Source: Acidobacteriota bacterium (GTDB lineage: Bacteria; Acidobacteriota; Terriglobia; Acidiferrales; UBA7541). From it: DNA of 64,000 nucleotides. The position numbers and the translations under genes are program-made. Each line of letters opens with the position of its first letter. Within the stretch, counting starts at the first letter, position 1. The stretch lies in NCBI GenBank assembly GCA_021818865.1, contig JAKASX010000002.1, positions 27,209 through 91,208 of the forward strand, in the 5' to 3' direction. Below the pieces are notes generated by a model that did no database searches, had not been told where the DNA came from, and worked only from the letters and a program-made list of their open reading frames with translations. Positions 37,809 to 61,055 of the stretch are shown piece after piece.

Positions 37809-39077
37809 CTAGCCCGAAATCCGTTCGATCCGCCCGCCCAGTGCGCGCAGCTTTTCCTCGATTCGCTCGTAGCCCCGGTCAATGTGGTACACGCGATCCA
37901 CAATTGTCGTTCCTTGCGCCGCCAGGCCGGCGATTACGAGCGACGCGCTCGCCCGCAAATCGGAAGCGATTACGGCCGCTCCGCTGAGCGGCGTCGGTCC
38001 GCGCACGATCGCCTGATTGCCGCGAATCGCGATATCGGCGCCCATCCGAACCAGTTCGCTCGCGTGCAGGAAGCGATTCTCGAAAATCGTTTCGGTCACG
38101 ATGCTCGTTCCCGCCGCTTGCGTCACGAGAGCCATGTATTGCGCCTGCATGTCGGTGGGAAATCCCGGATATTCTTCCGTGGTCACGTCAGCCCCGCGCA
38201 GCCTGCCGCCTCCGCGCACGCGCAATCCTTCCTGCTCCTTCGTCACCGTCACGCCGCATTCCGCCAGCTTGTCCACCACCGCGTCCAAATGCTCTCCGCG
38301 TGCCCCTTCGAGCAGCAAATCGCCGCCCGTGATCGCTCCCGCTGCCAGAAATGTCCCCGTCGCGATCCGGTCCGCAATCACTTCGTGTTTCGCTCCGTGG
38401 AGCGAAGCAACGCCCTCGATTCGAATCGTCGAAGTCCCCGCGCCCTCGATCCGCGCGCCCATCGCAACGAGCAGTTGCGCCAGATCGGAGACCTCCGGCT
38501 CGCGCGCCACGTTTTCGAGCACCGTTTCGCCCTCCGCCAGCGTCGCCGCCATCATCACGTTTTCCGTTCCCGTCACGGTGATCCGGTCGAACACCAGCCG
38601 CGCCCCGCGCAGCCGCTTCGCTTTCGCCTCCACGTATCCGTGCTCGGTTGTGATTTCCGCGCCCAGCCGCTCGAGCGCCTTCAGGTGCAGATCGATTGGC
38701 CGCGCCCCGATCGCGCAGCCGCCCGGCATCGAAACCCTCGCGTAGCCGGTGCGCCCCACCAGCGGCCCCAGCACCAGCACCGACGCCCGCATCGTTTTCA
38801 CCAGATCGTAAGGCGCCTCCGCGTGCGAAATCGTTTCCGCCCGCAAGCGCACGCGCGCCTCCGCTCCTTCGCCTTCGGGACCTTCCACGCCCACGCTCAT
38901 GTGCCCGAGCAGCCGGGCCATCGTCTGGATATCGCGCACGCGCGGCAGATTGCGCAGTTCCACCACTTCGTTCGTCAGCAGGCAAGCCGCCAGTTCCGGC
39001 AGCGCCGCATTTTTCGCGCCGCTGATGCGCAGCGTTCCTTCCAGGCGTCGCCCGCCCTCGATCCGGAATTTATCCAT
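37809..39077 (-). CDS. murA: UDP-N-acetylglucosamine 1-carboxyvinyltransferase MurA (422 aa)
   Basis: First committed step of peptidoglycan synthesis: transfers enolpyruvate from PEP to UDP-GlcNAc. The fosfomycin-reactive cysteine is present (C121 in [15 protein letters not shown]); catalytic K22 (SGAKNAALP) and the C-terminal [18 protein letters not shown] are typical. Full length. Its ATG overlaps the end of murQ by eight bases, so it is read from the murQ transcript, with GAGGG-type ribosome-binding sequence inside murQ. Converges on the GntR gene 27 bp away. Confidence 0.97.
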
Positions 39078-40038
39078 GGCGTTTCACCCTCCCTCGGCGA
39101 CGCCCGCGCGCAGGTGATTTCTCGCCACTCGCCGCGGCGCCCTCCGCCACGCCCATGGCGATAGCCTTGCGCACGTTCCCGCCCGCGCCGCGCAGCCGCC
39201 GCTCCGCCTCGGCCCGCTCCACGCCTGTTTTCAGCATCACCAGCGCCACGGGAACGCGCTCCGCCAGCGCAAGCGCGCGCCGCGCTTCCGATTCGCGTAC
39301 GCCCGCAAGATCGGCCAGCAATTCGAGCGCCCGCGTCCGCAATTTCACGTTGTTCAGCGCCACGTAAATCATCCGGTTATCGTAAACGCGTCCCAGACGC
39401 GCCATCGCCGCCGTCGTCAGCATGTTCAGCACGAGCTTTTGCGCCGTGCCCGATTTCATTCGCGTCGAACCGGCCAGCACTTCCGGTCCCACGTCCGCGA
39501 CAATCGTGATATCCGCCAGCCGCGCGAGCGCCGGCCTCGGATTCGTCGTCACCAGCACCGTTTTCGCTCCCCGTCGCCGCGCTTCGCCGAGCGCACCGCC
39601 CACGTACGGCGTCGTTCCGCTCGCCGCGATGCCCACCACCACGTCTTTCCGCCCCGCTCCCACGCGCGCCATTTCCCGCGCGCCGTTTCGCGCGGAATCT
39701 TCAGCTCCTTCCACCGCATGGTCCAGCGCCCGTCTCCGTCCGGCCAGCAGCGCCAGCACCTGTTTGTCCGTCAACCCAAACGTCGGCCGGCATTCCGCCG
39801 CGTCCAGCGCGCCCAGCCGCCCGCTCGTCCCCGCGCCGGCGTAGATCAGCCGTCCGCCACGCGACAGCCCGGCCGTAATCGCATCCACGGCGCGAGCAAT
39901 CGCCGGAATCGCGCGCGCCACGGCAAATGGCACGCGCTGATCTTCGTGATTCAGCAGCCGCAGCAATTCAAGAGTGGATTTCTGGTCCAGGTTTCGCCAG
40001 CGAGGATGAGGCCGTTCGGTGAGTGGTCGATTGCGCAC
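39070..40038 (-). CDS. murQ: N-acetylmuramic acid 6-phosphate etherase MurQ (322 aa)
   Basis: Cleaves the lactyl ether of MurNAc-6-phosphate to give GlcNAc-6-phosphate and D-lactate, the key step of MurNAc salvage. SIS domain with [22 protein letters not shown] (68-89); the two catalytic acids of the E. coli enzyme correspond to E82 and E113 (GAEDS). The N-terminal [15 protein letters not shown] is the family start. GTG start at 40038. Overlaps murA by eight bases, so salvage and de novo UDP-MurNAc synthesis are transcriptionally linked here. The C-terminal Arg/Lys-rich tail ([15 protein letters not shown]) is longer than usual. Confidence 0.95.
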
Positions 40039-40047
40039 AGGCGACGA

Positions 40048-40674
40048 TTATAGCGTGCCTTCGGTCGTCGTCTCTTCCGTCAGCGATTCCAGGTTTTCCT
40101 TTGCCGGAGCCGGCGCCATGGCGCGCGATTTGCGTCTCGCATGCCGCACGCGCAGCCAGACCGACGCCGCCACGATCAGGATGCAGCCCTCGACAAACAG
40201 TTTTCCCCCGTCCAGCGGCCTAAACGGCGTCCCATTGAGATGCGGATCGGTCAGCAGGCCATGCACGAAAATAGCCCCGGCCATCAGGTACGTCGAGAAA
40301 TGCAGCGCCTTCCACCGTCGCCGTCCCAGCTCCACGCGGTAATGCGACGTAATCAGCACGAACCCCAGCGTGTACACGCCCACCGCGCCCAACAAATTGA
40401 TCGTCGGCTGCCGCGGCGCCCACGCGGGAAACACGACGTCCAGCCAGTCGAAACCAGCGCGCGGGGAAAACAGCAGCAGAACCGGATGCAAAATGCACGC
40501 CCCGAGCGCCGCGAAACCCGTCTGATTGTGTATCCGGAAAATATTGATTCGCCTGTGCGGCCAGAATCGCCATGGGCTGTATCGCACCGAAATCAGCAGC
40601 CCCAGCAGCAGATTCGCCGTCAGCAAAAACAGCGCAATAAGCCCCACGTCGCCTGAAAGCGCGATGGCCGACAA
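40048..40674 (-). CDS. Ferric-reductase-like (cytochrome b561 / MsrQ type) membrane protein (about 208 aa)
   Basis: Multi-spanning membrane protein with a ferric-reductase-like transmembrane domain. Five or six hydrophobic segments; paired haem-ligand-type histidines are seen in HNQTGFAALGACILHPVLLL and in TSHYRVELGRRRWKALHFSTYLMAGAIFVHG. The start is unclear because there is no ATG: TTG at 40674 has GGAG six bases upstream and gives 208 aa, and GTG at 40800 would give 250 aa with a weakly plausible N-terminus. The gene ends 9 bp before murQ starts and begins about 176 bp after the NagZ-fusion gene ends. No MsrP, flavin or NAD-binding reductase partner is nearby, so electron donor and acceptor are unknown. 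Confidence 0.75.
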   Translation of the reverse strand: MSAIALSGDVGLIALFLLTANLLLGLLISVRYSPWRFWPHRRINIFRIHNQTGFAALGACILHPVLLLFSPRAGFDWLDVVFPAWAPRQPTINLLGAVGVYTLGFVLITSHYRVELGRRRWKALHFSTYLMAGAIFVHGLLTDPHLNGTPFRPLDGGKLFVEGCILIVAASVWLRVRHARRKSRAMAPAPAKENLESLTEETTTEGTL

Positions 40675-40850
40675 ACGCGGCTCCGATCCTTGGCCCCGAA
40701 TTTTGGTTTCCCGCGTCCGCGCGCCGGAAATTGCCGCGCGCCCCGGGCCAGTTTGCGCCGCCTCGCGCCAGGAGCCTTGCCGCTTTGACGCCCGAATCAC
40801 TATAGGGGGTTGCAGAGCTTTCGGTTCGCGTTTTCTTGCCGCCGTTCGCG

Positions 40851-43709
40851 TCAGGGCTCGGGCTCGAGGCTGAGCGCGCGGACCACTGCGTCGTGCAGCG
40901 CCGGCCGCACCTGCCGGATCTTCACGTTTTCCGCCGAAGGATAGACGCGATTGGTCAGTAAAACGACGAAAAGCTGTTTCTCCGGATCGATCCAGATCGA
41001 AGTTCCCGTATAGCCCGTATGCCCGAAACTCTTCTCGGAAAAATAATGCCCGCTCGACGATTCCCCCGTCGGCACATCCCAGCCCAACGGGCGCGCCGAA
41101 TCGCCGATCGTCTCGCGCCGCGTAAACCGCTCGATCGTTTCCCGTCGAACGATGCGCCTGTGCGCGTAGACGCCGCCATTCAGAATCATCTGGCAGAAAA
41201 TCGCCAGATCCGAAGCGGTGGAAAATAGCCCCGCATGGCCCGCCACGCCGCCCATCGCCGCCGCATTCGAATCGTCCACTTCGCCCCAAATCTGCCGTTT
41301 CCGCCAGTTCGCGTCGTATTCCGTGAGAGCAATCCGAGCCCGCAACCGCCGCGCAGGCCGAAACAGCGAATCCTTCATCTCGAGCGGCTCGAAAATCTCC
41401 CGCTTTGCGTAACGTTCGAGCGTTTCTCCCGTAATCTGTTCCAGAATTTCGCCCAGCAGAATGAATCCCAGATCCGAATACAGAATCTTCGTTCCCGGCT
41501 CGTATTCAAGCGGCTCCGCGAGCGCCCGCGCAACGATGGCATCTCGTCCTTTCGCCTGCCGATAAAATTCCCGATGCGCGCGCAGCCCCGCCGAATGCCG
41601 CAGCAGATCCGCGATGGTTGCCTTGGCCCTCCATTCCGTCTGCCCCGCGTCGGCCCATTTCGGCAGATAATGCGCCACCGGCGCATCCAGCCTCAGCGCG
41701 CCCTTTTCCACCATTTGCATCGCAGCCGTCGTCGTCACCACCACCTTCGTCAGCGAAGCAGTGTCGTAAATCGTTTTCGGCGTCACCGCCGGCGATTTCC
41801 GCAAATACGTAAATCGTCCGAAAGCTCGAGTTGCGAGCCGATTTTCATGCCCCACGGCAAGGACCGCGCCGGGAAACGACTTTTCAGCAATCGCACGCTC
41901 CAAAATTTCATGCGCAGGGGCGAGTGCGTTCCGCATTGCTTCCGGTGCGGGCTCCAGCGTCATGGGCTTGGCCGCAATCGCGTGTCCTGCGCCGAGCGCC
42001 GCAACGCCCGGAATTTCCACCGGCAGCCTTCCGCCGATAGCCGTTTCTCCAAAAAGCGCCGCGCCCATCGCGCGTTCCGCAACCAGTTGCGTGCTGGCCG
42101 CGTTCAGCCACGTTTGAGCGGCCGGGAAACGGGAAACCAGATAGGGACTGCCAAACGAAAGCACAACGGCGGGCTTTTGGCGTGCCAGTACCCGATCCAC
42201 AAGTCCAGCCAGTTCACTCGGCAGCGCCACGCTGCCTTTCCGGTCCGCCACGCGCACGGAAATCGCCACAATCGCCAGGTCGTAAGCGGATTCCGCCGGC
42301 AGCTCGACATGCCTCGCGGGAAAAAATCGCGTATCCGCTCGCACCACGTCGAGCGTTCCCAGCCGCGCGCGCAATTCGTCTTCGATTCCATCGCCCGGCG
42401 CCGGATCGGGATCGGCGGAAATCGCGACCAGCAGCGCGCGCACGGCCTTTCGCGCATCGAGCGGCACGAGTCCCTGCTCGTCGCGAATCACCATGATTCC
42501 GCGGCTCGCAATATCGAGCGCTTCACGCGCAAATTCCGGCCGCGCAAACGTTTCGCCGAGCCGGGCAAGGTCAACGCGCGCTCCGCAGTTGAGGCCAAGT
42601 CGCGCCTTGGCCATAAGAATCCGTGTCACCGCAGCGTCAATTTGCGCTTGTGAGATTCGCCCATCGCGCACTGCCGCGCGCAGTGACTCCGTCGCGGCGT
42701 CCAGGTCGAGCGGATTGAGCAGCAGATCGGCTCCCGCGGCAATCGCCAGTTCGGCCGACCGGTTCACCGGATACCGCAGCGTGACGCCCGCCATATCGAG
42801 CGAGTCGCTCACGATCAATCCGCCAAATCCCATTTCCCGGCGCAGCAATCCGTTCAGAATGTTCGGCGAAAGCGTGGCCGGCAACGCCGGATCCGGTTCG
42901 AGCGCTGGAACCAGCAGATGTCCGGTCATAATCGTACTGGCGCCCGCACGAATCGCCGCACGAAACGGCGCGAGTTCCATTCGTTCCAGCCGCTCCCGCG
43001 ACGCCGAAATCACCGGCAATCCCGAATGCGAATCCACGTCCGTATCGCCATGCCCGGGAAAATGCTTCGCCGTCGCCAGCACGCCGTTTTCCTCGGCTCC
43101 GCGCACGAATTCCGCCACGAACCGGCTCACCGTTTCCGGCCGCTCGCCGTACGACCGGATATTGATGATTGGATTCGCCGGATTGTTATTCAGATCGGCC
43201 ACCGGCGCGTAAATCCAGTTCACGCCCACCGCGCGCGCCTCGATTGCCGTGATTCTCCCGGCCGCATACGCGTCCCGCGCGTCGCCCGTCGCCGCGATGG
43301 CCATCGCATGGGGCAGGGAAGTCCCTTCGGAAATTCGCATCGCCGTGCCCGTTTCGAAATCGGCTCCGACGAGCAGCGGAATCCTCGCCCGCTGCTGCAG
43401 CTCGTTCAGGACGGCGGCCGTGGGATACGCCTGCGCCAGCGCGATTCCGGTCCGCGTGCGTTGCGCCTCGATCATCACGCCGCCCGCTCGTCCCTCCGCC
43501 ACGACCTGCGCAAGCTGCCTGAACGCCGGATCTTCAAACGAAGTGAATCGTCCCCACGCCCGCACGACAAACAGCTGCCCCAGTTTTTCGTCGAGCGTCA
43601 TCCGCCGCAAGTGGCTCTCGACCCATCGCGCCACGGCCTGCGCGTCGCGCCGGCGCGAATCGCCGCGGGAAGGTTTGGCTCGCGCCGGCTTGCGGTCGCG
43701 GGACGTCAC
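40851..43709 (-). CDS. NagZ-type GH3 beta-N-acetylglucosaminidase fused to a class-C beta-lactamase-fold domain (952 aa)
   Basis: Two enzymes in one chain. Residues about 30-590 are a GH3 beta-N-acetylglucosaminidase: KHFPGHGDTDVDSH (215-228) with the His-Asp dyad and SDSLDM with nucleophile D302, plus the C-terminal GH3 domain found in Gram-positive NagZ. Residues about 620-945 are a serine hydrolase of the class-C beta-lactamase fold: SLTK (S652, K655), YSD, and GHTGYTGTSIWID as the third motif. In Bacillus subtilis NagZ and the beta-lactamase-fold amidase AmiE are adjacent separate proteins, so this domain is likely an AmiE-like MurNAc-L-Ala amidase. No signal peptide is seen, so a cytoplasmic location is inferred. 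GTG start at 43709; further upstream the frame runs into repeat DNA. Confidence 0.92.
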   Translation of the reverse strand: MTSRDRKPARAKPSRGDSRRRDAQAVARWVESHLRRMTLDEKLGQLFVVRAWGRFTSFEDPAFRQLAQVVAEGRAGGVMIEAQRTRTGIALAQAYPTAAVLNELQQRARIPLLVGADFETGTAMRISEGTSLPHAMAIAATGDARDAYAAGRITAIEARAVGVNWIYAPVADLNNNPANPIINIRSYGERPETVSRFVAEFVRGAEENGVLATAKHFPGHGDTDVDSHSGLPVISASRERLERMELAPFRAAIRAGASTIMTGHLLVPALEPDPALPATLSPNILNGLLRREMGFGGLIVSDSLDMAGVTLRYPVNRSAELAIAAGADLLLNPLDLDAATESLRAAVRDGRISQAQIDAAVTRILMAKARLGLNCGARVDLARLGETFARPEFAREALDIASRGIMVIRDEQGLVPLDARKAVRALLVAISADPDPAPGDGIEDELRARLGTLDVVRADTRFFPARHVELPAESAYDLAIVAISVRVADRKGSVALPSELAGLVDRVLARQKPAVVLSFGSPYLVSRFPAAQTWLNAASTQLVAERAMGAALFGETAIGGRLPVEIPGVAALGAGHAIAAKPMTLEPAPEAMRNALAPAHEILERAIAEKSFPGAVLAVGHENRLATRAFGRFTYLRKSPAVTPKTIYDTASLTKVVVTTTAAMQMVEKGALRLDAPVAHYLPKWADAGQTEWRAKATIADLLRHSAGLRAHREFYRQAKGRDAIVARALAEPLEYEPGTKILYSDLGFILLGEILEQITGETLERYAKREIFEPLEMKDSLFRPARRLRARIALTEYDANWRKRQIWGEVDDSNAAAMGGVAGHAGLFSTASDLAIFCQMILNGGVYAHRRIVRRETIERFTRRETIGDSARPLGWDVPTGESSSGHYFSEKSFGHTGYTGTSIWIDPEKQLFVVLLTNRVYPSAENVKIRQVRPALHDAVVRALSLEPEP

Positions 43710-43722
43710 GAAGGTCTCCGCT

Positions 43723-43739
43723 CCGGTCCCGAGGACCGG
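43723..43739. repeat. Short hairpin CCGGTCC-CGA-GGACCGG
   Basis: Perfect 7-bp inverted repeat just upstream of the NagZ-fusion start, within the 176-bp divergent spacer to the NamZ-fusion gene. Could be part of the adjacent REP-like element or a leader hairpin. Confidence 0.4.
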
Positions 43740-43765
43740 GAAGGCGCGAGTTCCTTCATCGGATC

Positions 43766-43836
43766 GGGATGCTTCGCTTCGCTCGGCATGACAGACGTGG
43801 TGAATTACCTCGACAATTTCGGTTACGGGGCACTGG
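43766..43836. repeat. REP-like element, copy A, with 3' tail
   Basis: The core reads TGTCATGCCGAGCGAAGCGA on the reverse strand, then AGCATCCC. A tail (43794-43836) resembles the tail of copy B (46459-46501), with both containing GTGAAT-YAY-CT and CGGTTAC-GGGCA. It occupies the divergent promoter region of the two fusion genes. Confidence 0.65.
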
Positions 43837-43885
43837 CATCAGTTGACGCGGACGGCTCGGGGCTGTATATAGCACAAGCTCGGCC

Positions 43886-46318
43886 ATGAACACACATCTT
43901 ACGTCATCAAAGTCGTCCAAAGCGTTTCTTCTCCCCCTGCTTCTGGCGCTGGCCGTTGCCGGCTCGCTCATTGCGGCCGTGCCCGGTCCGCCGAAGCTTT
44001 CCGACGTTGACGCCGTCATCAATCGCGCCATCGCCAAAAACGAACTGCCCGGCGCGGTCCTGCTCGTCGCGCATCGCGGGCGCATCGTCTACCTGAAGGC
44101 CTACGGCGAGCGCGCGCTCGTGCCGCATCGCGAGCGCATGACCGTCAACACCATCTTCGATCTCGCCTCGCTCACCAAGGTCTACGCCACGGCGCCTTCG
44201 ATCATGCTCCTCTTGCAGCAGGGCAAAATCCGCCTCAGCGAACCGGTCGCGCACTACCTGCCCCAATTCGCCGCCAACGGCAAGGACCAGATCACCGTGC
44301 GCATGCTCCTCACGCACTTTTCCGGTCTGCGGCCCGATCCCATCATTCCGCCCGGCGTCACCGGCTACAACGCGATCCTCAATATCATCTACGCCGATCG
44401 CCCCGTCTTCCCGCCCGGCATGCGGTTTCTTTATAGCGACTGCAATTACATCGTTCTCGGCCAGCTCGTCCAGAAAATTTCCGGCCTCCCGCTCAACGTT
44501 TTCGCCCAGCGCTACCTCTACAAACCGCTCGGCATGCGCCACACCGCGTTTCTCCCGCCCAAACGCTGGATTCCTCGCATCGCGCCCACACTCGAAATCG
44601 ATCTTCCGCCCGGCGCTTCTCCGATGTCCGGCAAGGGCGTGGTCCTGCGCGGCGTCGTCGAGGACCCGACCGCCCGCGCCATGGGCGGCGTCGCCGGCCA
44701 CGCCGGTCTTTTCTCCGACGCCAGGGATCTCGCCCGCTTTTCCCAGATGATGCTCATGAATGGCAAAATCCCGCGCGGCCGCTACCGTGGCCGCCGCCTG
44801 TTTGCCGCCGCGACCATCCATCTGATGACCTCCAATCAGTCACCGCCGTGGAGTCCGGTACAGGAAGGTTTGGGCTGGGAAATCGACAGCCCGTATTCCA
44901 ACAATCGCGGCGAGCTTTTCCCCGTCGGCGGCTACGGCCACACCGGCTGGACCGGCACGTCCATCTGGATCGATCCCGCGAGCCAAACCTTCGTCATCCT
45001 GCTCGCCAGCCGCGTCCATCCGTACATTCGGCCGCCGATTATCGCGCTCCGTGCCGAAGTGGCGAATCTGGTTGCGGCGGCTCTGAATGCCGGCGGGACC
45101 ACGGGTGAAACCTCCCCGCTCGTGCGCAGTCTGGGCGCCCAGGATCGTTCCTACGGGGTCGGCGGCGTCACGCTCCACAACGATCAAACCTTCACCGGCA
45201 TCGACATTCTCGAACAGGAAAATTTCGCCCCGCTTCAGGGCAAGCGCGTCGGCCTGATCACCAACAACACCGGTGTCGATCGCGAAGGCCGGCGCACCAT
45301 CGACGTCCTCGATCACGCCCCCGGCGTCAAGCTGGTGGCAATCTTCAGCCCGGAGGGCGGCATCCACGGCACGGCTAACACCTTCGTTCCAAACAGCAGG
45401 GACCCGGCGACCGGCCTGCCCATCTACAGTCTCTACGGCAAGACGACGCGCAGGCCCACGGCCAGAGAGCTGAAGGGTATCAACGCCCTCGTCTACGACC
45501 TTCAGGACGCCGGCGTGCGCTTCTACACATTCACCACAACCTTGGCCTATTGCATGCAAGCCGCGGCCAAATATCACATCCCGTTCTTCGTGCTCGACCG
45601 TCCCGATCCGCTCGGCGGCGAAATGATCGATGGGCCGATGCTCGATCCCGACCGGCTTTCCTTTGTCGGTGTCTTTCCCATGCCGGTCATTTACGGCATG
45701 ACCATCGGCGAGCTGGCGAAAATGTTCAACGCCCAGGACCACATCGGCGCCGATCTCACCGTTATCCCGATGCAAAACTGGCATCGCGAGGATACCTTCG
45801 ATCAGACCGGCCTCGTCTGGATCGCTCCCTCGCCCAATCTCCGCACCGTCAACGAGACCCTCCTTTACCCCGGCATCGAAATCCTACAGGCTGGCGGCGT
45901 TGCCGTGGGTCGCGGAACGGATACGCCGTTCGAGGTCCTCGGCGCGCCGTACATCCACGCCGGCGAATTCGCAGACTACCTGAACCATCAGTTCGTTCCC
46001 GGCGTCCGCTTCGTTCCGACGATGTTCACGCCGGCTTCCGGCATCTATCACGGCCAGCTGTGCCACGGCATCGAGCTGCTCGTCACCGATCGCGCTTCGC
46101 TTTCGCCCATTCTGATGGGAGTCGAAATCGCCTCGGCTCTGCACAAGCTCTATCCGCAGAATTTCCAGCTCGGCCGCACGATTCAGCTGCTCGGTTCGCG
46201 CAAGACGGTCGAGGAACTCGAAAACGGCGAAGCGCCCTCGCGCATCGTCGTCGGCTGGCAGAAGGAAATCAACCAGTTCCGCAAAATGCGCAGCAAATAC
46301 CTGATCTATCCGCGTTGA
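43886..46318 (+). CDS. Exported class-C beta-lactamase-fold hydrolase fused to NamZ (DUF1343) exo-N-acetylmuramidase (810 aa)
   Basis: Signal peptide or membrane anchor at 12-31 (KAFLLPLLLALAVAGSLIAA) indicates export. Residues about 40-400 are a serine hydrolase with SLTK (S95, K98), YSD and GHTGWTGTSIWID, clearly paralogous to the C-terminal half of the neighbouring NagZ fusion. Residues about 445-805 are a DUF1343 domain (GKRVGLITNNTGVDREGRRT, FSPEGGIHGT, VYDLQDAGVRFYTFTTTL, GRGTDTPFEVLGAP). DUF1343 founder NamZ of B. subtilis removes terminal MurNAc from peptidoglycan fragments, and there namZ, nagZ and amiE are neighbours. The fused hydrolase would strip peptides and NamZ release MurNAc outside the cytoplasm. 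Divergent from the NagZ fusion across 176 bp. Confidence 0.93.
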   Translation: MNTHLTSSKSSKAFLLPLLLALAVAGSLIAAVPGPPKLSDVDAVINRAIAKNELPGAVLLVAHRGRIVYLKAYGERALVPHRERMTVNTIFDLASLTKVYATAPSIMLLLQQGKIRLSEPVAHYLPQFAANGKDQITVRMLLTHFSGLRPDPIIPPGVTGYNAILNIIYADRPVFPPGMRFLYSDCNYIVLGQLVQKISGLPLNVFAQRYLYKPLGMRHTAFLPPKRWIPRIAPTLEIDLPPGASPMSGKGVVLRGVVEDPTARAMGGVAGHAGLFSDARDLARFSQMMLMNGKIPRGRYRGRRLFAAATIHLMTSNQSPPWSPVQEGLGWEIDSPYSNNRGELFPVGGYGHTGWTGTSIWIDPASQTFVILLASRVHPYIRPPIIALRAEVANLVAAALNAGGTTGETSPLVRSLGAQDRSYGVGGVTLHNDQTFTGIDILEQENFAPLQGKRVGLITNNTGVDREGRRTIDVLDHAPGVKLVAIFSPEGGIHGTANTFVPNSRDPATGLPIYSLYGKTTRRPTARELKGINALVYDLQDAGVRFYTFTTTLAYCMQAAAKYHIPFFVLDRPDPLGGEMIDGPMLDPDRLSFVGVFPMPVIYGMTIGELAKMFNAQDHIGADLTVIPMQNWHREDTFDQTGLVWIAPSPNLRTVNETLLYPGIEILQAGGVAVGRGTDTPFEVLGAPYIHAGEFADYLNHQFVPGVRFVPTMFTPASGIYHGQLCHGIELLVTDRASLSPILMGVEIASALHKLYPQNFQLGRTIQLLGSRKTVEELENGEAPSRIVVGWQKEINQFRKMRSKYLIYPR

Positions 46319-49029: not shown

Positions 49030-50424
49030 CTATCGGACCCTGTCCGCCGCCGGCCGCGACTCCCAGTGCCGGTAGAAAAACAGCCCGATCAGAATCGCCA
49101 CCAGCCCCAGCCCGGCCCGCAGCGGCCGTTCGATCAGCACGCTCGTGCTGATGGCCAGCGCGCCCAAAATGAACGCAACCTGCACCGCCGGGTAGCCCCA
49201 GCTTTTGAATGGCCGTTCGAGATCGGGTTCCCGGCGCCGCAGCCGAATCACCGCCGCCGTCGCCAATCCGTAAAAAATGAATTGCACAAAAATATAGAGC
49301 GAAGCGAGCTGAATGAACGTCCCGGTCAGCGCCAGAACCGACGCCAGGCACGCCTGGAAAATGAGCGCGTTCCCCGGCGTCCGGAAACGCGGATGGATTC
49401 CGCCCGCGATCCGGAAAAATCGCCGATCCCGTGCCATCGCGTAATCCACGCGCGCCCCGGTCAGAATCGAGGAATTCAGCGTGCCCAGCGCGCAGATGAC
49501 CATCGCAATCGTCAGCCAACCGGCCACGTGCGTTCCGGCCACGCGCGCGATCGCGTCCGAAGCGATGTGCTTCGAGGCCGCCGCTTCCGCGAACGGCAGC
49601 ACGTGAAAACAGGCCCCGCTCATCAAAATGTAGAGCAGCGCGACCAGCGATACGCCCCACACCAGCGCTCGCGGAATGTTCCGCGCCGGGTTCGCCACTT
49701 CCGAACCCACCAGCGTCACGTTGTCCCATCCGTCGTACGCCCACAGCGCCGCCACCAGCGCCACGAAAAATCCGCCCACCGTCGCTTGTCCCACGATGCT
49801 CGCCGCGCCCACCGCAATCGGGTGCCCCGTGAAGCTGAATCCCGCCAAAATCACCGCCGCAATCACCGCGACCTTGACGAGGGTCAGCACCACCTGCACC
49901 TGCCCGCCCAGCTTCACGCCCAGGTAATTGATGAACGTGACCGCGACGATCGCCACCGCCGCCAGCGGCATCGCCAGCGTAAACACAAAAACGTGCGGCG
50001 CGTGGCTCCAGGGCAGGGAATAATGCAGCGTCGCGATCGGCCGCATCACCCTCGGGTCCAGAAATCCCCAAAACAGCATCAGACCCGCCGCAATCGTCGC
50101 CACCGACGATGGCCGTCCCACAACCGAATGCATCCATCCAAACAGGAATCCCCACACCGGCCCGAATCCCCGGCTGATGAATGCGTATTCGCCGCCGGCT
50201 TCCGGTATCGCCGCGCCCAGCTCCGCGTAGCTGAAGGCCCCGAAAAGCGATAGAACCCCTCCGACCACCCACACCACGAATACCAGCCCCGGCGACTTCA
50301 CCGTCCGCGCCATATCGGCGGGAACGATGAAAATCCCGGTTCCGATCATCGTTCCGACCACGATCGCCGCCGCCGCCCACGCGCCCAGTGCGCGAACCAG
50401 ACCGTGGTCGCGTTCTCCGCTCAT
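49030..50424 (-). CDS. Amino-acid permease, APC superfamily (464 aa)
   Basis: Inner-membrane transporter with 12 predicted helices. The first helix carries the APC signature GTMIGTGIFIVPADMA, with unwound GxGIF; further marks are PEAGGEYAFISRGFGP and AYDGWDNVTLVGSEVANPARNIPRAL, typical of LAT-type amino-acid exchangers. The start at 50424 (MSGERDHGL) is fixed by the ATGA overlap with the stop of the upstream symporter gene; the frame is open 33 codons further but only inside that gene. Cotranscription with the symporter is very likely. Substrate unknown; uptake of amino acids or small peptide products from wall turnover would fit the neighbourhood but is inference. Confidence 0.9.
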   Translation of the reverse strand: MSGERDHGLVRALGAWAAAAIVVGTMIGTGIFIVPADMARTVKSPGLVFVVWVVGGVLSLFGAFSYAELGAAIPEAGGEYAFISRGFGPVWGFLFGWMHSVVGRPSSVATIAAGLMLFWGFLDPRVMRPIATLHYSLPWSHAPHVFVFTLAMPLAAVAIVAVTFINYLGVKLGGQVQVVLTLVKVAVIAAVILAGFSFTGHPIAVGAASIVGQATVGGFFVALVAALWAYDGWDNVTLVGSEVANPARNIPRALVWGVSLVALLYILMSGACFHVLPFAEAAASKHIASDAIARVAGTHVAGWLTIAMVICALGTLNSSILTGARVDYAMARDRRFFRIAGGIHPRFRTPGNALIFQACLASVLALTGTFIQLASLYIFVQFIFYGLATAAVIRLRRREPDLERPFKSWGYPAVQVAFILGALAISTSVLIERPLRAGLGLVAILIGLFFYRHWESRPAADRVR

Positions 50425-51908
50425 TGCGCCTCCGCCGAATTCGCCGGCCCGCCCCAAACGCGGCTCACTACCCATCCCGTCGTGAATGTCACAATCGTTC
50501 CCAAGGCCACGTACCAAGTCCACGCAATCGTATGGTGCAACTGGATGCCAAAAAGCCCAGCCAGCGGCTTCGCATATTGCACGCCAATCATAACCGCAAG
50601 TCCCGTCGCGAGTCCCACCAGCGCCCCGCGCGGTGTGGCGCGTCGGCTAACAATCGCCAGCAGGAATATGCCCAGCAATCCGCCATACGTGATCGAAGCG
50701 ATCGTCAGCCCCGCCACCAGCACCACGCCCCAGTGCAGCAGCCCCAGCGCTCCCAGCACCAGCCCCCACGCCACCGTCACCCAGCGCGACGTCTTCACCA
50801 GGCTCTGGTCGTCGAGCGTTTTCCCGCGCCGCAAATGCTGAAAATCCACCATCGTCGAAGACGCCAGCGAATTCAGCGATCCGCTCGCGCTCGACATCGC
50901 CACGGCGAAAATCGACGCCAGCACCAGCCCCGAAAGACCGTCCGGCAGAAATCGCACGATGAATTCCGGAAACAGCCGGTCGGTATCTCCGCCCGGCGGG
51001 ATCAGCATGGTATGCCGCGCGAAAACGTACAGCATCACGCCGATCACCAGAAACAGCGCGAACTGCACGAAAATCACCACACCGCTCGCCAGCAGCGCCA
51101 CTTTGCTGTCCCGCTCGTTTCGCGCCGCCAGCAGCCGTTGCACCATCGTCTGGTCGGTGCCGTGGCTCGCCATGACCAGAAACGTTCCGCCGATGACGCC
51201 CGCCCAGAAGTTATAGCTGTGGGTGAGGCTGAACCGGAAATTGAACACCCGCAGTTTGTGCCCGCTCGCCGCGGCCACGCGCGTCACTTCGCCCCATCCG
51301 CCCGGAATCTTGTGCAGAAGCAGGAAAAACGCGATCGCCGACCCTCCCAGATACAGGATCAGCTGCACCATGTCCGTCCAGATCACCGCCCGCATTCCGC
51401 CCTCGAACGTGTACAGAATCGTCAGCGCCGTCATGATCGCCACCGACGCGCTTTCCCCCGTTCCCAGCGCAACGCTGACCACTTTTCCGATCGCGTTGAT
51501 CCGCACGCCCTCCGCCAGCGCCCGCGTGATCATAAAAACGGTCGCCGTCGCCGACTTCACCTTCGGCCCAAATCTCTTTTCGATGAACTGGTAAGCCGTG
51601 TAAAATTCCCCGCGAAAATAGCGCGGCAGAAACACCAGGCACAGAATGACCCGCGCCACAAGGTAGCCCATCACCACCTGGAGGAAACCCAGATTCCCGG
51701 CGTAGGCGAGTCCCGGCGTGCTGATGATCGTCAGCGTCGAGGTTTCCGTCGCGACGACCGATCCCGCCAGCGCCCACCACGGCGCCGCGCGACTGCTCAG
51801 GAAATATTCGCGCAGGCTCGTCTGCTTCCGCCGGAAGCGCATCCCGAAAAGGGTCACGCCCGCCAAATACGCCAGAACTATCCCGAGATCGAGCCCGCTG
51901 ATCCGCAT
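50421..51908 (-). CDS. Sodium:solute symporter, SSS family (495 aa)
   Basis: Secondary transporter with about 13 helices of the LeuT-fold SSS family. N-terminal YFLSSRAAPWWALAGSVVATETSTLTIISTPGLAYAG region and the core GxxR/GEFYTAYQFIEKRFGP and SSASGSLNSLASSTMVDF (the family's C-terminal Na+-site helix with Ser-rich motif) are clear. It closely resembles sugar/sialic-acid type SSS members rather than proline permeases, as judged by eye. It lies divergent from a BadF-type sugar kinase (179 bp) and 8 kb from a MurNAc-releasing enzyme, so an amino sugar such as MurNAc is a reasonable substrate guess. Upstream gene of a two-gene operon with the APC permease. Confidence 0.92.
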   Translation of the reverse strand: MRISGLDLGIVLAYLAGVTLFGMRFRRKQTSLREYFLSSRAAPWWALAGSVVATETSTLTIISTPGLAYAGNLGFLQVVMGYLVARVILCLVFLPRYFRGEFYTAYQFIEKRFGPKVKSATATVFMITRALAEGVRINAIGKVVSVALGTGESASVAIMTALTILYTFEGGMRAVIWTDMVQLILYLGGSAIAFFLLLHKIPGGWGEVTRVAAASGHKLRVFNFRFSLTHSYNFWAGVIGGTFLVMASHGTDQTMVQRLLAARNERDSKVALLASGVVIFVQFALFLVIGVMLYVFARHTMLIPPGGDTDRLFPEFIVRFLPDGLSGLVLASIFAVAMSSASGSLNSLASSTMVDFQHLRRGKTLDDQSLVKTSRWVTVAWGLVLGALGLLHWGVVLVAGLTIASITYGGLLGIFLLAIVSRRATPRGALVGLATGLAVMIGVQYAKPLAGLFGIQLHHTIAWTWYVALGTIVTFTTGWVVSRVWGGPANSAEAQ

Positions 51909-52087: not shown

Positions 52088-53011
52088 GTGAAGTATTTTC
52101 TCGGCCTCGATGGCGGAGGCACGAAAACCGACGCCGCGCTCATTGACGCTTCTGGTCGCGTCATCGCCCAGGCTCGTGGCGGGGCGTCGAATCCTTTGCG
52201 TTCGAGTTTCGCCCGCGCCTTCACTTCGCTCGACGATGCCGCGGCACGCGCCCTCGCCGCGGCCGATTTGGAAGCCTCGAGCATTCAGGGCGTCGTTGCC
52301 GGTCTTGCCGGCGCCGCTCAGCCTCGCGTCGCCGCCCGCGTCGCCGCCTTTCTCGCCACGCGTTTCCGCGAAGCCGAAATCGAGGCCATCGCCGATCTCG
52401 AAATCGCTCTCGAAACCGTCTCCGAATCCGGTCCCGCAGTCGTTTTGATCGCCGGAACCGGCTCGGCCGCGTTTGGCCGCGACGTCGAAGGCCGCACCGC
52501 CCGCGCCGGCGGCTGGGGACCCTGGTTCGGCGACGAAGGCAGCGCTTTCGCCATCGCTCGCGCCGCACTGCAAACCATCGCTCGCGCCCACGACGCCGGC
52601 GCCTTGCCTTCCACCTTCGCCCAAGCCATCGCGTCTTCGCTCGGCTTGAAATCCTGGCCCGAAGTCTTCGATTTCGTTTCCCGCAAGCCGCTCGAGCGCA
52701 TGCCGTCCGTTTTCCCCGCTGTCGCCGAAGCCGCCGACGCCGGCAACGAAACCGCCCGCGAAATCCTCGATGGCGCAGCGAACGATCTCGCCGCGCTCGC
52801 CTCCACGGTCATCGCCCGTCTGGAACTCGGCGAGCAGGAATTCCTCCTCGGCCGCGTCGGCGGCGTTTTTGGCCGCTTTGCGTATTTCGACGAACGTTCC
52901 GCCGCGCGACTTTCCCAGCTTTCCCCGCTCCTGCGCATCGTGGCTCCGCGTTTTTCTCCCGCCGTGGCCGCCGCTCACCGAGCGCTTCGCCGCGCTTCCA
53001 ATCCTGCCTGA
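52088..53011 (+). CDS. BadF/BadG-type sugar kinase (N-acetylglucosamine kinase / MurK-like) (307 aa)
   Basis: ASKHA-fold kinase of the BcrAD_BadFG family. The phosphate-1 motif is GLDGGGTKTDAALID (6-20); phosphate-2 is VLIAGTGSAAFG (about 120-131); GGWGPWFGDEGSAFAIARAAL (about 139-159) with the Gly-Asp-Glu-Gly-Ser signature is typical of NAGK-type enzymes. The family includes N-acetylglucosamine kinases and MurK of Clostridium acetobutylicum, which phosphorylates both GlcNAc and MurNAc. With MurQ in the window needing MurNAc-6-phosphate, a MurK role is plausible. GTG start at 52088 after AAAGGA. Divergent from the symporter operon. Activator subunits of dehydratases share the fold but have Cys ligands that are absent here. 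Confidence 0.88.
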   Translation: MKYFLGLDGGGTKTDAALIDASGRVIAQARGGASNPLRSSFARAFTSLDDAAARALAAADLEASSIQGVVAGLAGAAQPRVAARVAAFLATRFREAEIEAIADLEIALETVSESGPAVVLIAGTGSAAFGRDVEGRTARAGGWGPWFGDEGSAFAIARAALQTIARAHDAGALPSTFAQAIASSLGLKSWPEVFDFVSRKPLERMPSVFPAVAEAADAGNETAREILDGAANDLAALASTVIARLELGEQEFLLGRVGGVFGRFAYFDERSAARLSQLSPLLRIVAPRFSPAVAAAHRALRRASNPA

Positions 53012-54138: not shown

Positions 54139-55530
54139 CTACAAGCTGCCGTGCGTGCGCCGCTTCAGAAATTCGCCGCGCCCGGGCTTTCCCAGAAAAT
54201 TCCCGCGCTCCAGGATCACCTCGCCACGGCTCAGCACCTTCCGCGCCACGCCTTTCACCCGAATTCCCTCGAACATCGAATAATCCACACGCATGTGGTG
54301 CGTTTTCGCGCTGATTGTTTCTTCCGCCTCGGGATCGAACAGCACGATATCCGCATCCGAGCCCACGGCGATCGTTCCCTTGCGTGGATAGAGGCCAAAC
54401 AGCTTCGCCGGCGCCGTCGAAACCACCTGCACGAACCGGTTCGGCGAAAATCGGCCCGTCTGCACCCCGCCCGTGTACACCAGACTCATCCGGTTCTCGA
54501 CGCCCGGCCCGCCATTGGGGATCTTGGTGAAATCGTCCTTCCCCAGTTCCTTCTGCTCCTTGAAGCAGAACGGACAATGATCGGTTGAAACCACCTGCAA
54601 GTCGTCCCGCGTAAGCGCGTTCCACAGCTTTTCCTGGTGCCATTTTTCGCGCAGCGGCGGCGTGAACACGTATTTCGCGCCCTCGAATCCCGGCGCGTCG
54701 AAATTCTCGATCGAAAGAAACAGGTACTGCGGACACGTCTCCGCGTACACCGGCAGCCCGCGCTCCCGCGCCTCGCGCACCCGTCCGAGCGCCTCGTTGC
54801 AGGAAAGATGCACGATGTAGACCGGCGCGCCGGCCATTTCCGCGAGAGCGATCGCGCGCCCCGTCGCTTCGCCTTCCGCCGTCGTCGGCCGCGTCAGCGC
54901 GTGGTATTTCGGCGCGCGTTTTCCCTCCGCCAGCGCCCGCTTCACGATCACGTCGATCGCTCCGCCGTTTTCCGCGTGCATGCAGATGAATGCGCCCACG
55001 TCCGCGGCCACGCTCATCGCGCGGAAAATCGTCGCGTCGTCCAGCATGAAGACGCCCGGATACGCCATGAACAGCTTGAAACTGCTCACACCCTCCGCCG
55101 CCAGCTGCTTCATCTCCTTCGCGCGTTCCTCGTCCAGTTCCGTCACGATGCAATGGAACGCGTAATCGATCGTCGCCTTGCCGTCCGCCTTTTTCATCCA
55201 CGTGTCGAACGCGTGATGCAGGGTCTGCCCGTGGTATTGAATCGCGAAATCGATCAGCGTCGTCGTCCCGCCCCACGCCGCCGCCCGCGTTCCCGTCTCG
55301 AAATCGTCCGCGCTCGTCGTTCCGCCAAACGGCATGTCCAGATGCGTGTGCACGTCGATTCCGCCCGGCATCACCATCAGGTTCGCCGCGTCCACCACCC
55401 GCCGCGCGCCTTCCATCGGCAGTTCGCTCCCGACTGAGGCGATTTTGCCGTCGCGGATGCCGACGTCGGCCCGATAGGTGTCGGTCGCCGTGACGACGGT
55501 GCCGTTCCGAATCAGTGTGTCGAATGTCAT
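54139..55530 (-). CDS. Dihydropyrimidinase / D-hydantoinase (463 aa)
   Basis: Zinc amidohydrolase opening the dihydrouracil or dihydrothymine ring to N-carbamoyl-beta-amino acids. Metal ligands HTH (H61, H63 in GGIDVHTHLDMPF), carbamylated K152 (SSFKLFMAYPG), later His in AENGG and VHLSCNEALG, and STDHCPF with the catalytic Asp are present; the order and length fit dihydropyrimidinase better than allantoinase or dihydroorotase. Start ATG 55530 shares a base with the stop of the flavin oxidoreductase gene (TGATG), so the two are translationally coupled. Last gene of the minus-strand pyrimidine-degradation set. Confidence 0.94.
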   Translation of the reverse strand: MTFDTLIRNGTVVTATDTYRADVGIRDGKIASVGSELPMEGARRVVDAANLMVMPGGIDVHTHLDMPFGGTTSADDFETGTRAAAWGGTTTLIDFAIQYHGQTLHHAFDTWMKKADGKATIDYAFHCIVTELDEERAKEMKQLAAEGVSSFKLFMAYPGVFMLDDATIFRAMSVAADVGAFICMHAENGGAIDVIVKRALAEGKRAPKYHALTRPTTAEGEATGRAIALAEMAGAPVYIVHLSCNEALGRVREARERGLPVYAETCPQYLFLSIENFDAPGFEGAKYVFTPPLREKWHQEKLWNALTRDDLQVVSTDHCPFCFKEQKELGKDDFTKIPNGGPGVENRMSLVYTGGVQTGRFSPNRFVQVVSTAPAKLFGLYPRKGTIAVGSDADIVLFDPEAEETISAKTHHMRVDYSMFEGIRVKGVARKVLSRGEVILERGNFLGKPGRGEFLKRRTHGSL

Positions 55531-56540
55531 CAGAGTCCCTCCGGTCCCTGCGCGCGAAAATGCGGCACGATTTCGCGCTCGTACGCGTCGAGCGTCGCTT
55601 CCTCTTCGCCCGACATCAGGTAAATGTTGAATTGCGTGGCGCCGGCCCGCTTCAGTTCTTCCATCCTTCGCCGGTGCGCTTCCGCCGTCCCGACGATCGC
55701 GAACCGGTCGATCACCTCGTCGCTCACGAAATCGGCATTCGAACTATCTACTTCGCAGTGGTGCAGATAATCGTAGCCGGGCCGGTTGCGCACGTACGTC
55801 GTCAGTTCCGCCGGCAATTCCTCCGGCTTGTAGCGCGAAATCAGGTCCACCACGTGATTCGAAACGAGCGCCGGAAACCATCGCACCCGCTCCCGCGCCT
55901 TTTCCAGGTCCTCCGAAACCCACACCGCCGCGGCCGACATCACCTCGATCTTCCCTGGATCGCGCCCCGCGGCTTCGGCTCCCTTGCGCACGAATTCCAG
56001 GCACCAGCGAATCAGGTACGGATCGGCAAATTGCAAAATGATGCCGTCGGCCACGCGCCCGGCCAATTCCAGCGCCTTCGGTCCGTAGCCGGCTACCCAC
56101 ACGCGCGGGCTGCCTTGGGCCCACGCCAGCCGCACCGGCGACCCTTCGTACGTCACTTCTCGCCCCGCCGTCAGCTCGCGAAACATCCGGATCGTTTCCT
56201 CGAGTTGCACGAGCGTCGTCGGCCGTTTGCCCATTACTCTCCGCGAACTGTCTCCGCGCCCGATCCCCAACTCCATCCGCCCGCCGGAAATTTCCTGCAG
56301 CGTGGCAAACAGGCTCGACGTCACCGTGACGTCTCGCACCGCCGGATTCGTCACGCACGTTCCCAGCCGCATCGCACGCGTGTTCGCCGCCATCAGCGTC
56401 AGCAGCGGGTACGGCTCTTTCCACAGCACGTGCGAATCGAACAGCCAGCCGTAACCGAATCCGGCGCCTTCCGCCTGCCGCGCCAGCCGCAGCAGGCGGT
56501 CCGTCGTGAGATCTGGCTTGAGAGTGATTCCGAAATCCAT
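55530..56540 (-). CDS. LLM-class flavin/F420-dependent oxidoreductase (336 aa)
   Basis: Luciferase-like monooxygenase fold (TIM barrel) enzyme. N-terminal MDFGITLKPDL, GTCVTNPAVRDVTVTSSLFATL, GRMELGIGRGDSS and VWVAGYGPKALELAGRVADG (the glycine-rich cofactor-binding piece) are typical of F420-dependent and FMN-dependent LLM proteins. A subgroup of such proteins is found in hydantoin and pyrimidine degradation clusters. RutA, the uracil oxygenase, is also of this superfamily, but the cluster encodes the reductive route, so a RutA role is not supported. Overlaps the dihydropyrimidinase start (TGATG). Strong GGGAGGGGGAG before ATG. Confidence 0.88.
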   Translation of the reverse strand: MDFGITLKPDLTTDRLLRLARQAEGAGFGYGWLFDSHVLWKEPYPLLTLMAANTRAMRLGTCVTNPAVRDVTVTSSLFATLQEISGGRMELGIGRGDSSRRVMGKRPTTLVQLEETIRMFRELTAGREVTYEGSPVRLAWAQGSPRVWVAGYGPKALELAGRVADGIILQFADPYLIRWCLEFVRKGAEAAGRDPGKIEVMSAAAVWVSEDLEKARERVRWFPALVSNHVVDLISRYKPEELPAELTTYVRNRPGYDYLHHCEVDSSNADFVSDEVIDRFAIVGTAEAHRRRMEELKRAGATQFNIYLMSGEEEATLDAYEREIVPHFRAQGPEGL

Positions 56541-56559
56541 CGTTTCTCCCCCTCCCGCA

Positions 56560-57006
56560 TCAATACACCACCAGCGGATGCGGCAGTTCGAGCGACAGTT
56601 CGCCGTGCCCCTCGGCGATCTGCACCGTGATTTTCTGCGCCGGACCGATATCGTGCGAATCCCAGGTTTCCGTGCGAACGAGCGGCATCGTGTTGTCCGG
56701 GCCAGGCCCTTCCAGATTTTCCCCGTGAGCCTTGTACCAACTCTCCTCGACGCGATACAGCCGCTTCTGCTTCAAACTGATCAGGTACCAGTCTTTCATC
56801 ACTTGCAGCAGCAGCAGATTGCGGTCTTTCTTCGCCCGCCACACGTTCCACTTCTTCACCGGGCGCTCATTCCACGTGAAGAGCGCCGCGCTCACCGGTT
56901 TCCACACCAGCCGTTTCCCCTTCAGCTGCGCGCCAGCCGCCGCCAACGGAAAAATCAACGCCAGCGCTAGCGCCGCCATCCAAATTCCGCTGCGTGCGCG
57001 CGTCAT
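56560..57006 (-). CDS. Exported protein of unknown function in the pyrimidine cluster (148 aa)
   Basis: Unrecognised. Signal peptide 1-26 (GIWMAALALALIFPLAAAGA). The mature part is a small beta-rich domain with RNLLLLQVMKDWYLISLKQKRLY and a C-terminal VQIAEGHGELSLELPHPL. AAGGAG precedes the ATG by eight bases, and the gene lies 18 bp after the aldehyde dehydrogenase and 19 bp before the oxidoreductase, so it belongs to the operon even though an exported product in a catabolic pathway is unexpected. Confidence 0.75.
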   Translation of the reverse strand: MTRARSGIWMAALALALIFPLAAAGAQLKGKRLVWKPVSAALFTWNERPVKKWNVWRAKKDRNLLLLQVMKDWYLISLKQKRLYRVEESWYKAHGENLEGPGPDNTMPLVRTETWDSHDIGPAQKITVQIAEGHGELSLELPHPLVVY

Positions 57007-57024
57007 CGCTTCGTCTCCTTCGCT

Positions 57025-58521
57025 TCAGTAAGCCCGCGTCTCGCGCCGGCTCCCCGTGTAATCGATGTAGACGGCCTTCACTTCGGTGAAGAAATCCACC
57101 GCGCCGTGCCCCATCTCGCGCAGCCCCACTCCGGTCGCTTTCATCCCGCCGAACGGCAAATGCGCCTCGCCGCCCACCGTCGGCGAATTCACGTGCGTGA
57201 TTCCCGTCTCGATCCGGTCGATAAACGCGAAAATCTTCGCGGCATCGTTCGAATAGAGCGAACTCGACAATCCGTACTTCACGCTGTTCGCCACATCCAT
57301 CGCCTCGTCAAAATCCTTCACCCGCACCACCGACAGCACCGGCCCGAATATCTCGTCCTGGGCAAGGGAACTGTCCCGCGCCACATGATCGAAAATGGTC
57401 GGAGCGACGAAATAGCCGCGGTCCCACGCCCCTCCTGCAAGCCGTTCCCCTCCCAGCACCAATTTCGCAGCGCCTTTTCCCGTCTCGATGTACCGCATGT
57501 CCGTTTCGATCTGTTGCTCGTTCACGGCCGGTCCCATGTCCACGTCCGGTTCGAGCCCATTGCCCACTTTCCATTTCTTTGCCCGGCTCGCCACCATCTC
57601 CACGAACCGGTCGGCCACTTCCTTCTCGATCACCACGCGGCTCGTCGCCGTGCACCGCTGCCCGGTCGAAGCGAAAGCTCCAAACACCGTCGCTTCCGCC
57701 GCCAGTTCCAAATCCGCGTCCTTGAGCACCACCAGCGGATTTTTGCCTCCCATTTCGCACTGGCATTTCTTCATGCGTTCCGCGCCGGCGTGATAGATCC
57801 CGCTGCCCACCGCGTTCGATCCGGTAAACGAAACCGCTCGCACATCCGGATGCTCCACGAGCGTTCCTCCGGCTTCGCGCCCCGATCCCACCACCATGTT
57901 GACCACCCCCGCCGGAACGCCCGCTTCGGCCAGCAGTTCCAGCGTTTTCGCCGCCGTCTGCGCCGTAAACGTCGAAGGTTTCAGCACCACGGTATTTCCC
58001 GCCACGATCGCCGGCGCGATTTTCCATACCGGAATCGAAACCGGGAAATTCCACGGCGTGATCGCGCCCACTACCCCCATCGGCTGCTTGATCGTGTACG
58101 CGAAATTTTTCGGCAAATCGCTTGGCATCGTTTCCCCAGCGAGCCGCATCCCTTCGCCCGCCATGAATTCCAGCACCCGCACCGATTTGATCACCTCGCC
58201 GAGCGAATCTTTCAGCGTTTTTCCCTCTTCACGCGTCAGCAGCCGCGCCAGTTCCTCTTTTCGCTGTTCCATCAACTGCGCCGCACGCGCCAAAATACGT
58301 CCGCGCGCCGGCGCCGGCGTGTCGCGCCACGCGGGAAACGCGCGACGGGCCGCTTCGATCGCCTGCCGCATCTCCTCCGCCGTCGAAAGCGGCACGATCG
58401 TCACGATTTCGTCGAAATTGGCCGGATTCCGTCGTTCCACCACGCGTGCCGAGCGCGACGCCACCCACTCCCCGCCGATGAAATTCCGGCACAGTTGCTC
58501 TTCGAGAGCCGCGGTTGCCAT
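57025..58521 (-). CDS. Aldehyde dehydrogenase, probably a semialdehyde dehydrogenase (498 aa)
   Basis: NAD(P)+-dependent dehydrogenase. Catalytic Cys in GQRCTATSR, general-base Glu in CQCEMGGKNPLVVL, cofactor segment PWNFPVSIPVWKIAPAIVAGNTVVLKPS and the C-terminal GGMKATGVGLREMGHGAVDFF are all intact. Sequence is close to alpha-ketoglutaric-semialdehyde (YcbD-type) dehydrogenases, but the operon context (beta-ureidopropionase, aminotransferase) suggests oxidation of malonate semialdehyde or methylmalonate semialdehyde made from beta-alanine or beta-aminoisobutyrate. GGAGGGA before ATG. The last four genes in the operon follow with short gaps. Confidence 0.92.
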   Translation of the reverse strand: MATAALEEQLCRNFIGGEWVASRSARVVERRNPANFDEIVTIVPLSTAEEMRQAIEAARRAFPAWRDTPAPARGRILARAAQLMEQRKEELARLLTREEGKTLKDSLGEVIKSVRVLEFMAGEGMRLAGETMPSDLPKNFAYTIKQPMGVVGAITPWNFPVSIPVWKIAPAIVAGNTVVLKPSTFTAQTAAKTLELLAEAGVPAGVVNMVVGSGREAGGTLVEHPDVRAVSFTGSNAVGSGIYHAGAERMKKCQCEMGGKNPLVVLKDADLELAAEATVFGAFASTGQRCTATSRVVIEKEVADRFVEMVASRAKKWKVGNGLEPDVDMGPAVNEQQIETDMRYIETGKGAAKLVLGGERLAGGAWDRGYFVAPTIFDHVARDSSLAQDEIFGPVLSVVRVKDFDEAMDVANSVKYGLSSSLYSNDAAKIFAFIDRIETGITHVNSPTVGGEAHLPFGGMKATGVGLREMGHGAVDFFTEVKAVYIDYTGSRRETRAY

Positions 58522-58558
58522 GACTATCCCTCCTCGCTTGCCTGCGTTCGACCGGCCA

Positions 58559-59881: not shown

Positions 59882-59972
59882 TCGTGTCCTCCTGGAAAAG
59901 AAATTGGGTGGGCGGGATTACCGAGCCGGGCGAAGCGTCCGCGTGGCGGCAGCCCCGCTCCCGCCGCGCCGC

Positions 59973-60875: not shown

Positions 60876-61055
60876 CGCCATCCCTCCTGCCGCCTCGCTG
60901 CCATTCCAGCCGTTATTCTACTCCCCGTAGCCGAGCGAAAGCGCGGATGTTTCCACGATGGCTGTCTTGCCGGGAGTTGAGACGGCTGCGCCCGGCCGGC
61001 CGCGGAAAGGGAACTGCTCCCGCAGCCGGACGAGCGCCTTGCGTCTAGCGGTTCG

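Follow-up and report, generated by a model that had tools for sequence, protein, structure and literature searches.

The window (the whole stretch of 64,000 nucleotides analysed here) contains two adjacent, divergent genes, each fusing a wall glycosidase to a serine hydrolase. The first, P1 (40851..43709, minus strand), encodes a NagZ-AmiE protein of 952 aa without a signal peptide, and its sole plausible start is a GTG codon with GGAG in front. P1 comprises a NagZ catalytic domain (42615..43598, minus strand; PF00933, residues 38-365, E-value 2.5e-84), a GH3 C-terminal domain (42006..42479, minus strand; PF01915, residues 411-568, just under its curated cut-off) and an AmiE-type serine hydrolase of lineage B, the NagZ-linked lineage (40914..41903, minus strand; PF00144, residues 603-932, E-value 8e-69), which carries ASLTK, YSD and GHTG. 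The KHFPGHGDTDVDSH motif of the NagZ domain is kept, being identical in B. subtilis NagZ (3bmx), and the Asp-His dyad motif KHFPGHGDTDxDSH is present in P1 and absent from the other GH3 proteins of the genome. P1 is the only NagZ found in the genome. The second gene, P2 (43886..46318, plus strand), encodes an exported AmiE-NamZ protein of 810 aa. It begins with a Sec signal peptide recognised by a heuristic scan (MNTHLTSSKSSKAFLLPLLLALAVAG...; 43886..43978, plus strand), followed by an AmiE-type serine hydrolase of lineage A, the NamZ-linked lineage (44009..45022, plus strand; PF00144, residues 42-379, E-value 8e-65), and by the N-terminal catalytic domain (45248..45850, plus strand; PF07075, residues 455-655, E-value 3e-79) and C-terminal domain (45860..46309, plus strand; PF20732, residues 659-808, E-value 3e-41) of NamZ, both above their curated cut-offs. 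The coordinates and strands of the original prediction were correct, and the Pfam domains confirm the two architectures that it had proposed. An assembly accident was rejected as their source, given that the same divergent, adjacent pair recurs in many relatives. Comparison with the congener G003 gave dN/dS values of 0.06-0.12 for the domains of P1 and P2, indicating purifying selection; along P1 the values were 0.09-0.12, with little constraint on the N-terminal 24 codons (0.67). Just upstream of P1 lies a repeat-like stretch translating as HAERSEASRSDEG (43710-43800), present as a single copy in the window, and a search for promoters between the genes, based on sequence only, gave a single weak site. 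A predicted small membrane protein without a Pfam match is encoded between P1 and MurQ (40141-40770).

Over ~345 aa, the PF00144 domains of P1 and P2 share 42% identity (E 1.7e-64), well above what chance would produce. Both retain SxxK, YSD and GHTG together with the GHAGLFS signature. The stretches quoted in the original prediction as shared by the two domains are indeed present in both, and mark the AmiE family as a whole: SGHAGLFS and GHTGWTGT occur in the Bacillus enzyme as well. A tree of 64 domain sequences, including Bacillus AmiE, YfeW, AmpC, AmpH, the esterase 7pp3 and S12 proteins of relatives, was built to place them. IQ-TREE set P1 and P2 inside an AmiE clade, with support of 97/88 without one divergent haloarchaeal sequence and 35/64 with it, and FastTree agreed that this clade excludes AmpC, AmpH, the esterase and the other S12 proteins of the relatives. 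P1 falls in a sublineage of NagZ-linked domains with Bacillus AmiE and E. coli YfeW (support 94/89), and P2 falls in the sister sublineage, which holds all NamZ-linked domains including AmiE-NamZ of Burkholderia and Cupriavidus (support 76/80). The tree thus supports placing both hydrolases with the AmiE/YfeW kind, the outcome on which the original assignment had been made to depend. It also bears on the idea that the domains are mirror-image paralogues: they are paralogous and stand in opposite order, but by their positions in the tree they represent old, separate lineages and not a local copy that was turned round.

The PF00144 family is broad, and the hydrolases might instead be esterases, beta-lactamases or DD-peptidases that came by chance to sit on wall glycosidases and strip no peptide from MurNAc. 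Among NCBIfam models, both match PBP4B (E. coli YfeW) best, and both score under its equivalog cut-off. YfeW itself was reported to be a penicillin-binding protein of low affinity (PMC5061867). However, the tree sets P1 and P2 apart from AmpC, AmpH, the esterase and the S12 paralogues, all of which lack the signatures GHAGLFS and GHTG-x-TGT that P1 and P2 keep. Fusion and neighbourhood further tie these domains to NagZ, NamZ, MurQ and AnmK in several phyla, and such a chance association is therefore considered very unlikely. In E. coli, the YfeW gene adjoins murQ and murP.

The NamZ half of P2 departs from its family at one site. The motif PEHG is found in 56 of 58 aligned NamZ domains, the exceptions being L018 (PESG) and the window, in which the codon at 45356..45358 (plus strand) gives Gly for the near-invariant His (PEGG). 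The motif is intact in the congeners G001, G003 and G004, of which G003 is 90% identical to the window. A local double frameshift was rejected as the origin of PEGG, since DNA alignment with three congeners showed substitutions only at the motif. By its domains P2 is classed as a NamZ despite the missing PEHG, and the NamZ activity of this copy appears doubtful after the loss of His. The NamZ half may be dead in this strain, leaving the AmiE half alone working, and the restriction of the loss to the window and L018 speaks for this. However, the Glu of the motif is retained, the local DNA alignment gives no sign of a compensating frameshift, and the dN/dS of 0.12 across the whole NamZ domain indicates purifying selection. 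A dead NamZ half is regarded as possible but rather doubtful.

In a phylum-wide set of 197 genomes, almost all of which are at least 90% complete, 156 have NamZ. Among the 150 NamZ matches listed, 98 lie in frames of at most 600 aa and 47 in frames of at least 740 aa, the size of AmiE-NamZ. Frame length serves here as a proxy for fusion; a domain search of twelve long frames found AmiE with NamZ in eleven. Members of the window's family have either fused AmiE-NamZ or a lone NamZ at the same divergent site beside NagZ-AmiE. Other phyla were surveyed through plasmids and Bacillus loci only: NagZ-AmiE also occurs in Bacteroidota, and in haloarchaea AmiE, NamZ and NagZ are separate neighbouring genes. 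One haloarchaeal plasmid (L090) holds AmiE, NamZ, NagZ and AnmK genes together. Haloarchaea are not known to have peptidoglycan, and this gene set perhaps serves the scavenging of bacterial wall. In two further loci (L063:4953-7628 and L064:4319-6982), AmiE is fused at its C-terminus to a GH30-like domain (top PDB hit AcXbh30A, 7n6h, E 5e-28) whose usual NEP acid/base motif reads NRP and which may be inactive or changed.

The surroundings of the pair agree with the MurNAc salvage setting originally proposed, although that proposal missed the rest of the cluster, namely MurQ, the symporter and the MurK-type kinase. P1 is followed by the genes for the MurNAc-6-phosphate etherase MurQ (39070..40038, minus strand; above the curated cut-off of TIGR00274) and for MurA (37809..39077, minus strand), a conserved neighbour that overlaps MurQ; the two are adjacent in many relatives. 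P2 is followed by Dph6-like and TrbI-like genes, an APC amino acid permease (49030..50523, minus strand), which is a conserved neighbour of the symporter beside it, a sodium:solute symporter of the SSF family (50421..51908, minus strand) and a divergent BcrAD/BadFG-type sugar kinase (PF01869; 52088..53011, plus strand). The symporter, with or without the APC permease, occurs together with NamZ or AmiE-NamZ, NagZ-AmiE, MurQ and MurA in most same-family relatives read in detail; in G004 the salvage genes are spread over two contigs. Judged from contig numbers, the BadF kinase is on the contig of the cluster in this genome and several relatives. The symporter belongs to the SSF family and is linked to the MurNAc pathway, as expected of a MurT-type importer, and is probably a MurNAc importer. 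The kinase, a PF01869 protein beside that importer in a cluster with MurQ, is probably a MurNAc kinase of the MurK type. It also matches a GlcNAc-kinase model, under the cut-off of that model. This genome carries AnmK, as do 27 of 31 relatives; AmpG occurs in 2 of the 31, and none was found in this genome. The gene content points to an acidobacterium as the probable host. The region at 37.8-53.0 kb probably constitutes a MurNAc salvage cluster, a judgement made jointly with the pathway set out below.

Two further candidates in this setting were set aside. SSF_A, a symporter that stands beside MurQ in other families, was rejected as the importer here since it is absent from this genome. In G015, AmiE alone beside NagZ-AmiE was rejected as a split gene; it sits at the edge of a contig, and NamZ is found at a second such edge. 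Farther along the window (54139-60881), genes for an amidohydrolase, an aldehyde dehydrogenase, a class III aminotransferase and a carbon-nitrogen hydrolase stand in a row that resembles reductive pyrimidine breakdown.

The role of the symporter is informed by the genus g34 (e.g., G102 and G197), in which the phylum survey revealed frames of ~1400 aa that join SSF, AmiE and NamZ. The SSF part is 51-52% identical to the window symporter, which is unfused and lies 4.1 kb from P2. The triple protein was matched in 58 of 60 g34 genomes, including all 45 of good quality; in 29 genomes one alignment is near full length, many of these genomes being in one to ten contigs, and in more it is matched as two pieces of one frame. 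Examples are found at L186:4712-9013 and L187:7351-11571, and also in L198-L207. The joint in several g34 proteins resembles a signal peptide without its own Met (e.g., KHKAKILTTALLAILAFHAKPAEA-Q in L186), and AmiE-NamZ would be brought to the periplasmic side by this final membrane span; GTG or TTG starts near the joint are possible in some members. The evidence appears evenly balanced on whether g34 makes a single membrane protein, with the former signal peptide of AmiE-NamZ as its last span and the enzymes held in the periplasm on their own importer, so that peptide stripping, MurNAc release and import would be the work of a single machine, in which the sugar might be handed from one part to the next. 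In G181, a homologous symporter gene directly precedes AmiE-NamZ. The window holds the parts of the g34 triple protein in unlinked form. By the gene-fusion argument, since a homologue of the window symporter is fused to AmiE-NamZ in g34, the window symporter probably takes up what P2 releases, most likely MurNAc. A comparable SSF_A-AmiE-NamZ frame in G044 (L062:1036-5187) was rejected as firm evidence, given that 11 genomes of the same family show no such frame; it perhaps represents two overlapping genes, with an internal Met ahead of a good signal peptide. The argument uses the g34 fusions alone. No description of an SSF-AmiE-NamZ fusion was found in a partial literature search.

Signal peptides across the relatives were judged by a simple heuristic scan. 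Nearly all AmiE-NamZ and NamZ proteins carry one, as does NagZ-AmiE of most lineages. NagZ-AmiE without a signal was found in the window genus (G000, G001, G003 and G004), in G018 (a clear case), G029 and G048, and G033, whose only candidate is weak and poor, was counted with them. If read by genus, the signal would have been lost at least four times, in the window genus and in at least three other lineages. Signal-bearing relatives have an internal Met within the signal (LLLMTP/LLLMTS). Loss through use of an internal start is likely, because the shortened proteins of G018 and G029 start at the corresponding Met-Thr-Pro/Ser. The original prediction had split the two fusions between compartments; only the NamZ fusion has a signal in this genome, which upholds that part, but the split is not a general design. 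It would be the derived state of a few lineages, because NagZ-AmiE is exported in most relatives. It is conceivable that P1 leaves the cell by an unrecognised route and that both fusions are periplasmic, with no compartment split: most orthologues are exported, and in a genome without AmpG a cytoplasmic NagZ has no obvious supply. However, no convincing signal-like segment occurs at any possible start in the four of four genus members having the gene, and the N-terminal 24 aa are little constrained while the rest is conserved. Export of P1 by such a route is thus judged unlikely, and loss of export is preferred.

The pathway proposed from these domains, active-site motifs, neighbours and transporter fusions would begin in the periplasm with P2, whose AmiE domain would strip the stem peptide off a MurNAc residue that forms the open (non-reducing) terminus of a wall fragment. 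Its NamZ domain would next release that peptide-free MurNAc, and the fusion would hold the product of the first step beside the enzyme of the second. The sodium symporter (50421-51908) would import free MurNAc, the BadF-type kinase (52088-53011) would phosphorylate it, and MurQ would split the phosphorylated MurNAc into GlcNAc-6-phosphate and lactate. P1 would first release the GlcNAc cap and afterwards the peptide. Where P1 is exported, as in most relatives, the two fusions would take turns at the same end of the strand; in the window genus the signal peptide has been lost, and P1 therefore probably acts in the cytoplasm, on imported fragments. Several points count against this pathway. P1, the only NagZ found, is unexported and AmpG is absent, which leaves no obvious enzyme to uncap GlcNAc outside the cell and no obvious route for muropeptides to P1. 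Further points are the lost His of NamZ, the distance of the unfused symporter from P2, and the kinase family, BadF kinases also phosphorylating GlcNAc. With these points weighed, the salvage cluster and pathway as a whole are considered the likely explanation.

One close parallel is the murQ-murR-murP-amiE-nagZ-namZ cluster (ybbIHFEDC) of Bacillus subtilis, in which the three enzymes likewise share one neighbourhood with MurQ. According to work by Muller et al. in 2021, NamZ reportedly acts in sequence after NagZ and AmiE in this organism. The function of AmiE and NagZ is cited in PMC5061867. Unlike the separate genes of B. subtilis, AmiE is present twice in the window, once fused to each glycosidase, and PTS import by MurP is replaced by a sodium symporter and a BadF kinase.

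The fusions are less new than the original prediction implied: a 2008 survey of serine proteases listed one PF00144-DUF1343 case and two GH3-PF00144 cases (PMC2605481), and in 2020 RmNag3 of Rhodothermus marinus was characterised as a NagZ bearing an additional beta-lactamase-like domain (PMC6987092). P2 has the same order of PF00144 and PF07075 as DDPept-DUF1343 of the survey (YP_439122.1), a single listed case whose role was not discussed (PMC2605481). Homologues ~40% identical to P2 occur on Burkholderia and Cupriavidus plasmids (L088, L089, L096), where the genes preceding AmiE-NamZ encode a polysaccharide deacetylase and a putative glycoside hydrolase, and MurQ is not a neighbour. P1 resembles RmNag3 and the Bacteroides and Salinibacter GH3-beta-lactamase-fold proteins, which likewise carry an AmiE-type domain behind NagZ. 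RmNag3 is active as a NagZ and carries a signal peptide, and R. marinus encodes AnmK but not AmpG (PMC6987092). Unlike the exported RmNag3, P1 has no export signal; no adjoining NamZ fusion was described for RmNag3, and its C-terminal domain was not assigned as AmiE.

The window symporter, kinase and MurQ match by family the murTKQ products of Tannerella forsythia, in which the MurNAc importer MurT is of the sodium-symporter type and the MurNAc kinase MurK belongs to PF01869 (PMC5790795). However, no importer fused to wall enzymes has been described there, and T. forsythia has AmpG (PMC7670621), which the window genome lacks. A limited literature search found nothing specific on MurNAc recycling in this bacterial group, where it seems little studied and where wall-recycling enzymes are here linked into fused units. 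NagZ-AmiE offers a testable case of repeated compartment change, and the triple protein a gene-fusion argument for a MurNAc importer where AmpG and MurP are absent. Compared with these known systems, the two fusions taken singly are not new. The present analysis adds their placement in the AmiE family, the linkage to the cluster, the repeated losses of the export signal and the triple fusion; of greater interest than the rest of the finding is its extension to the importer.
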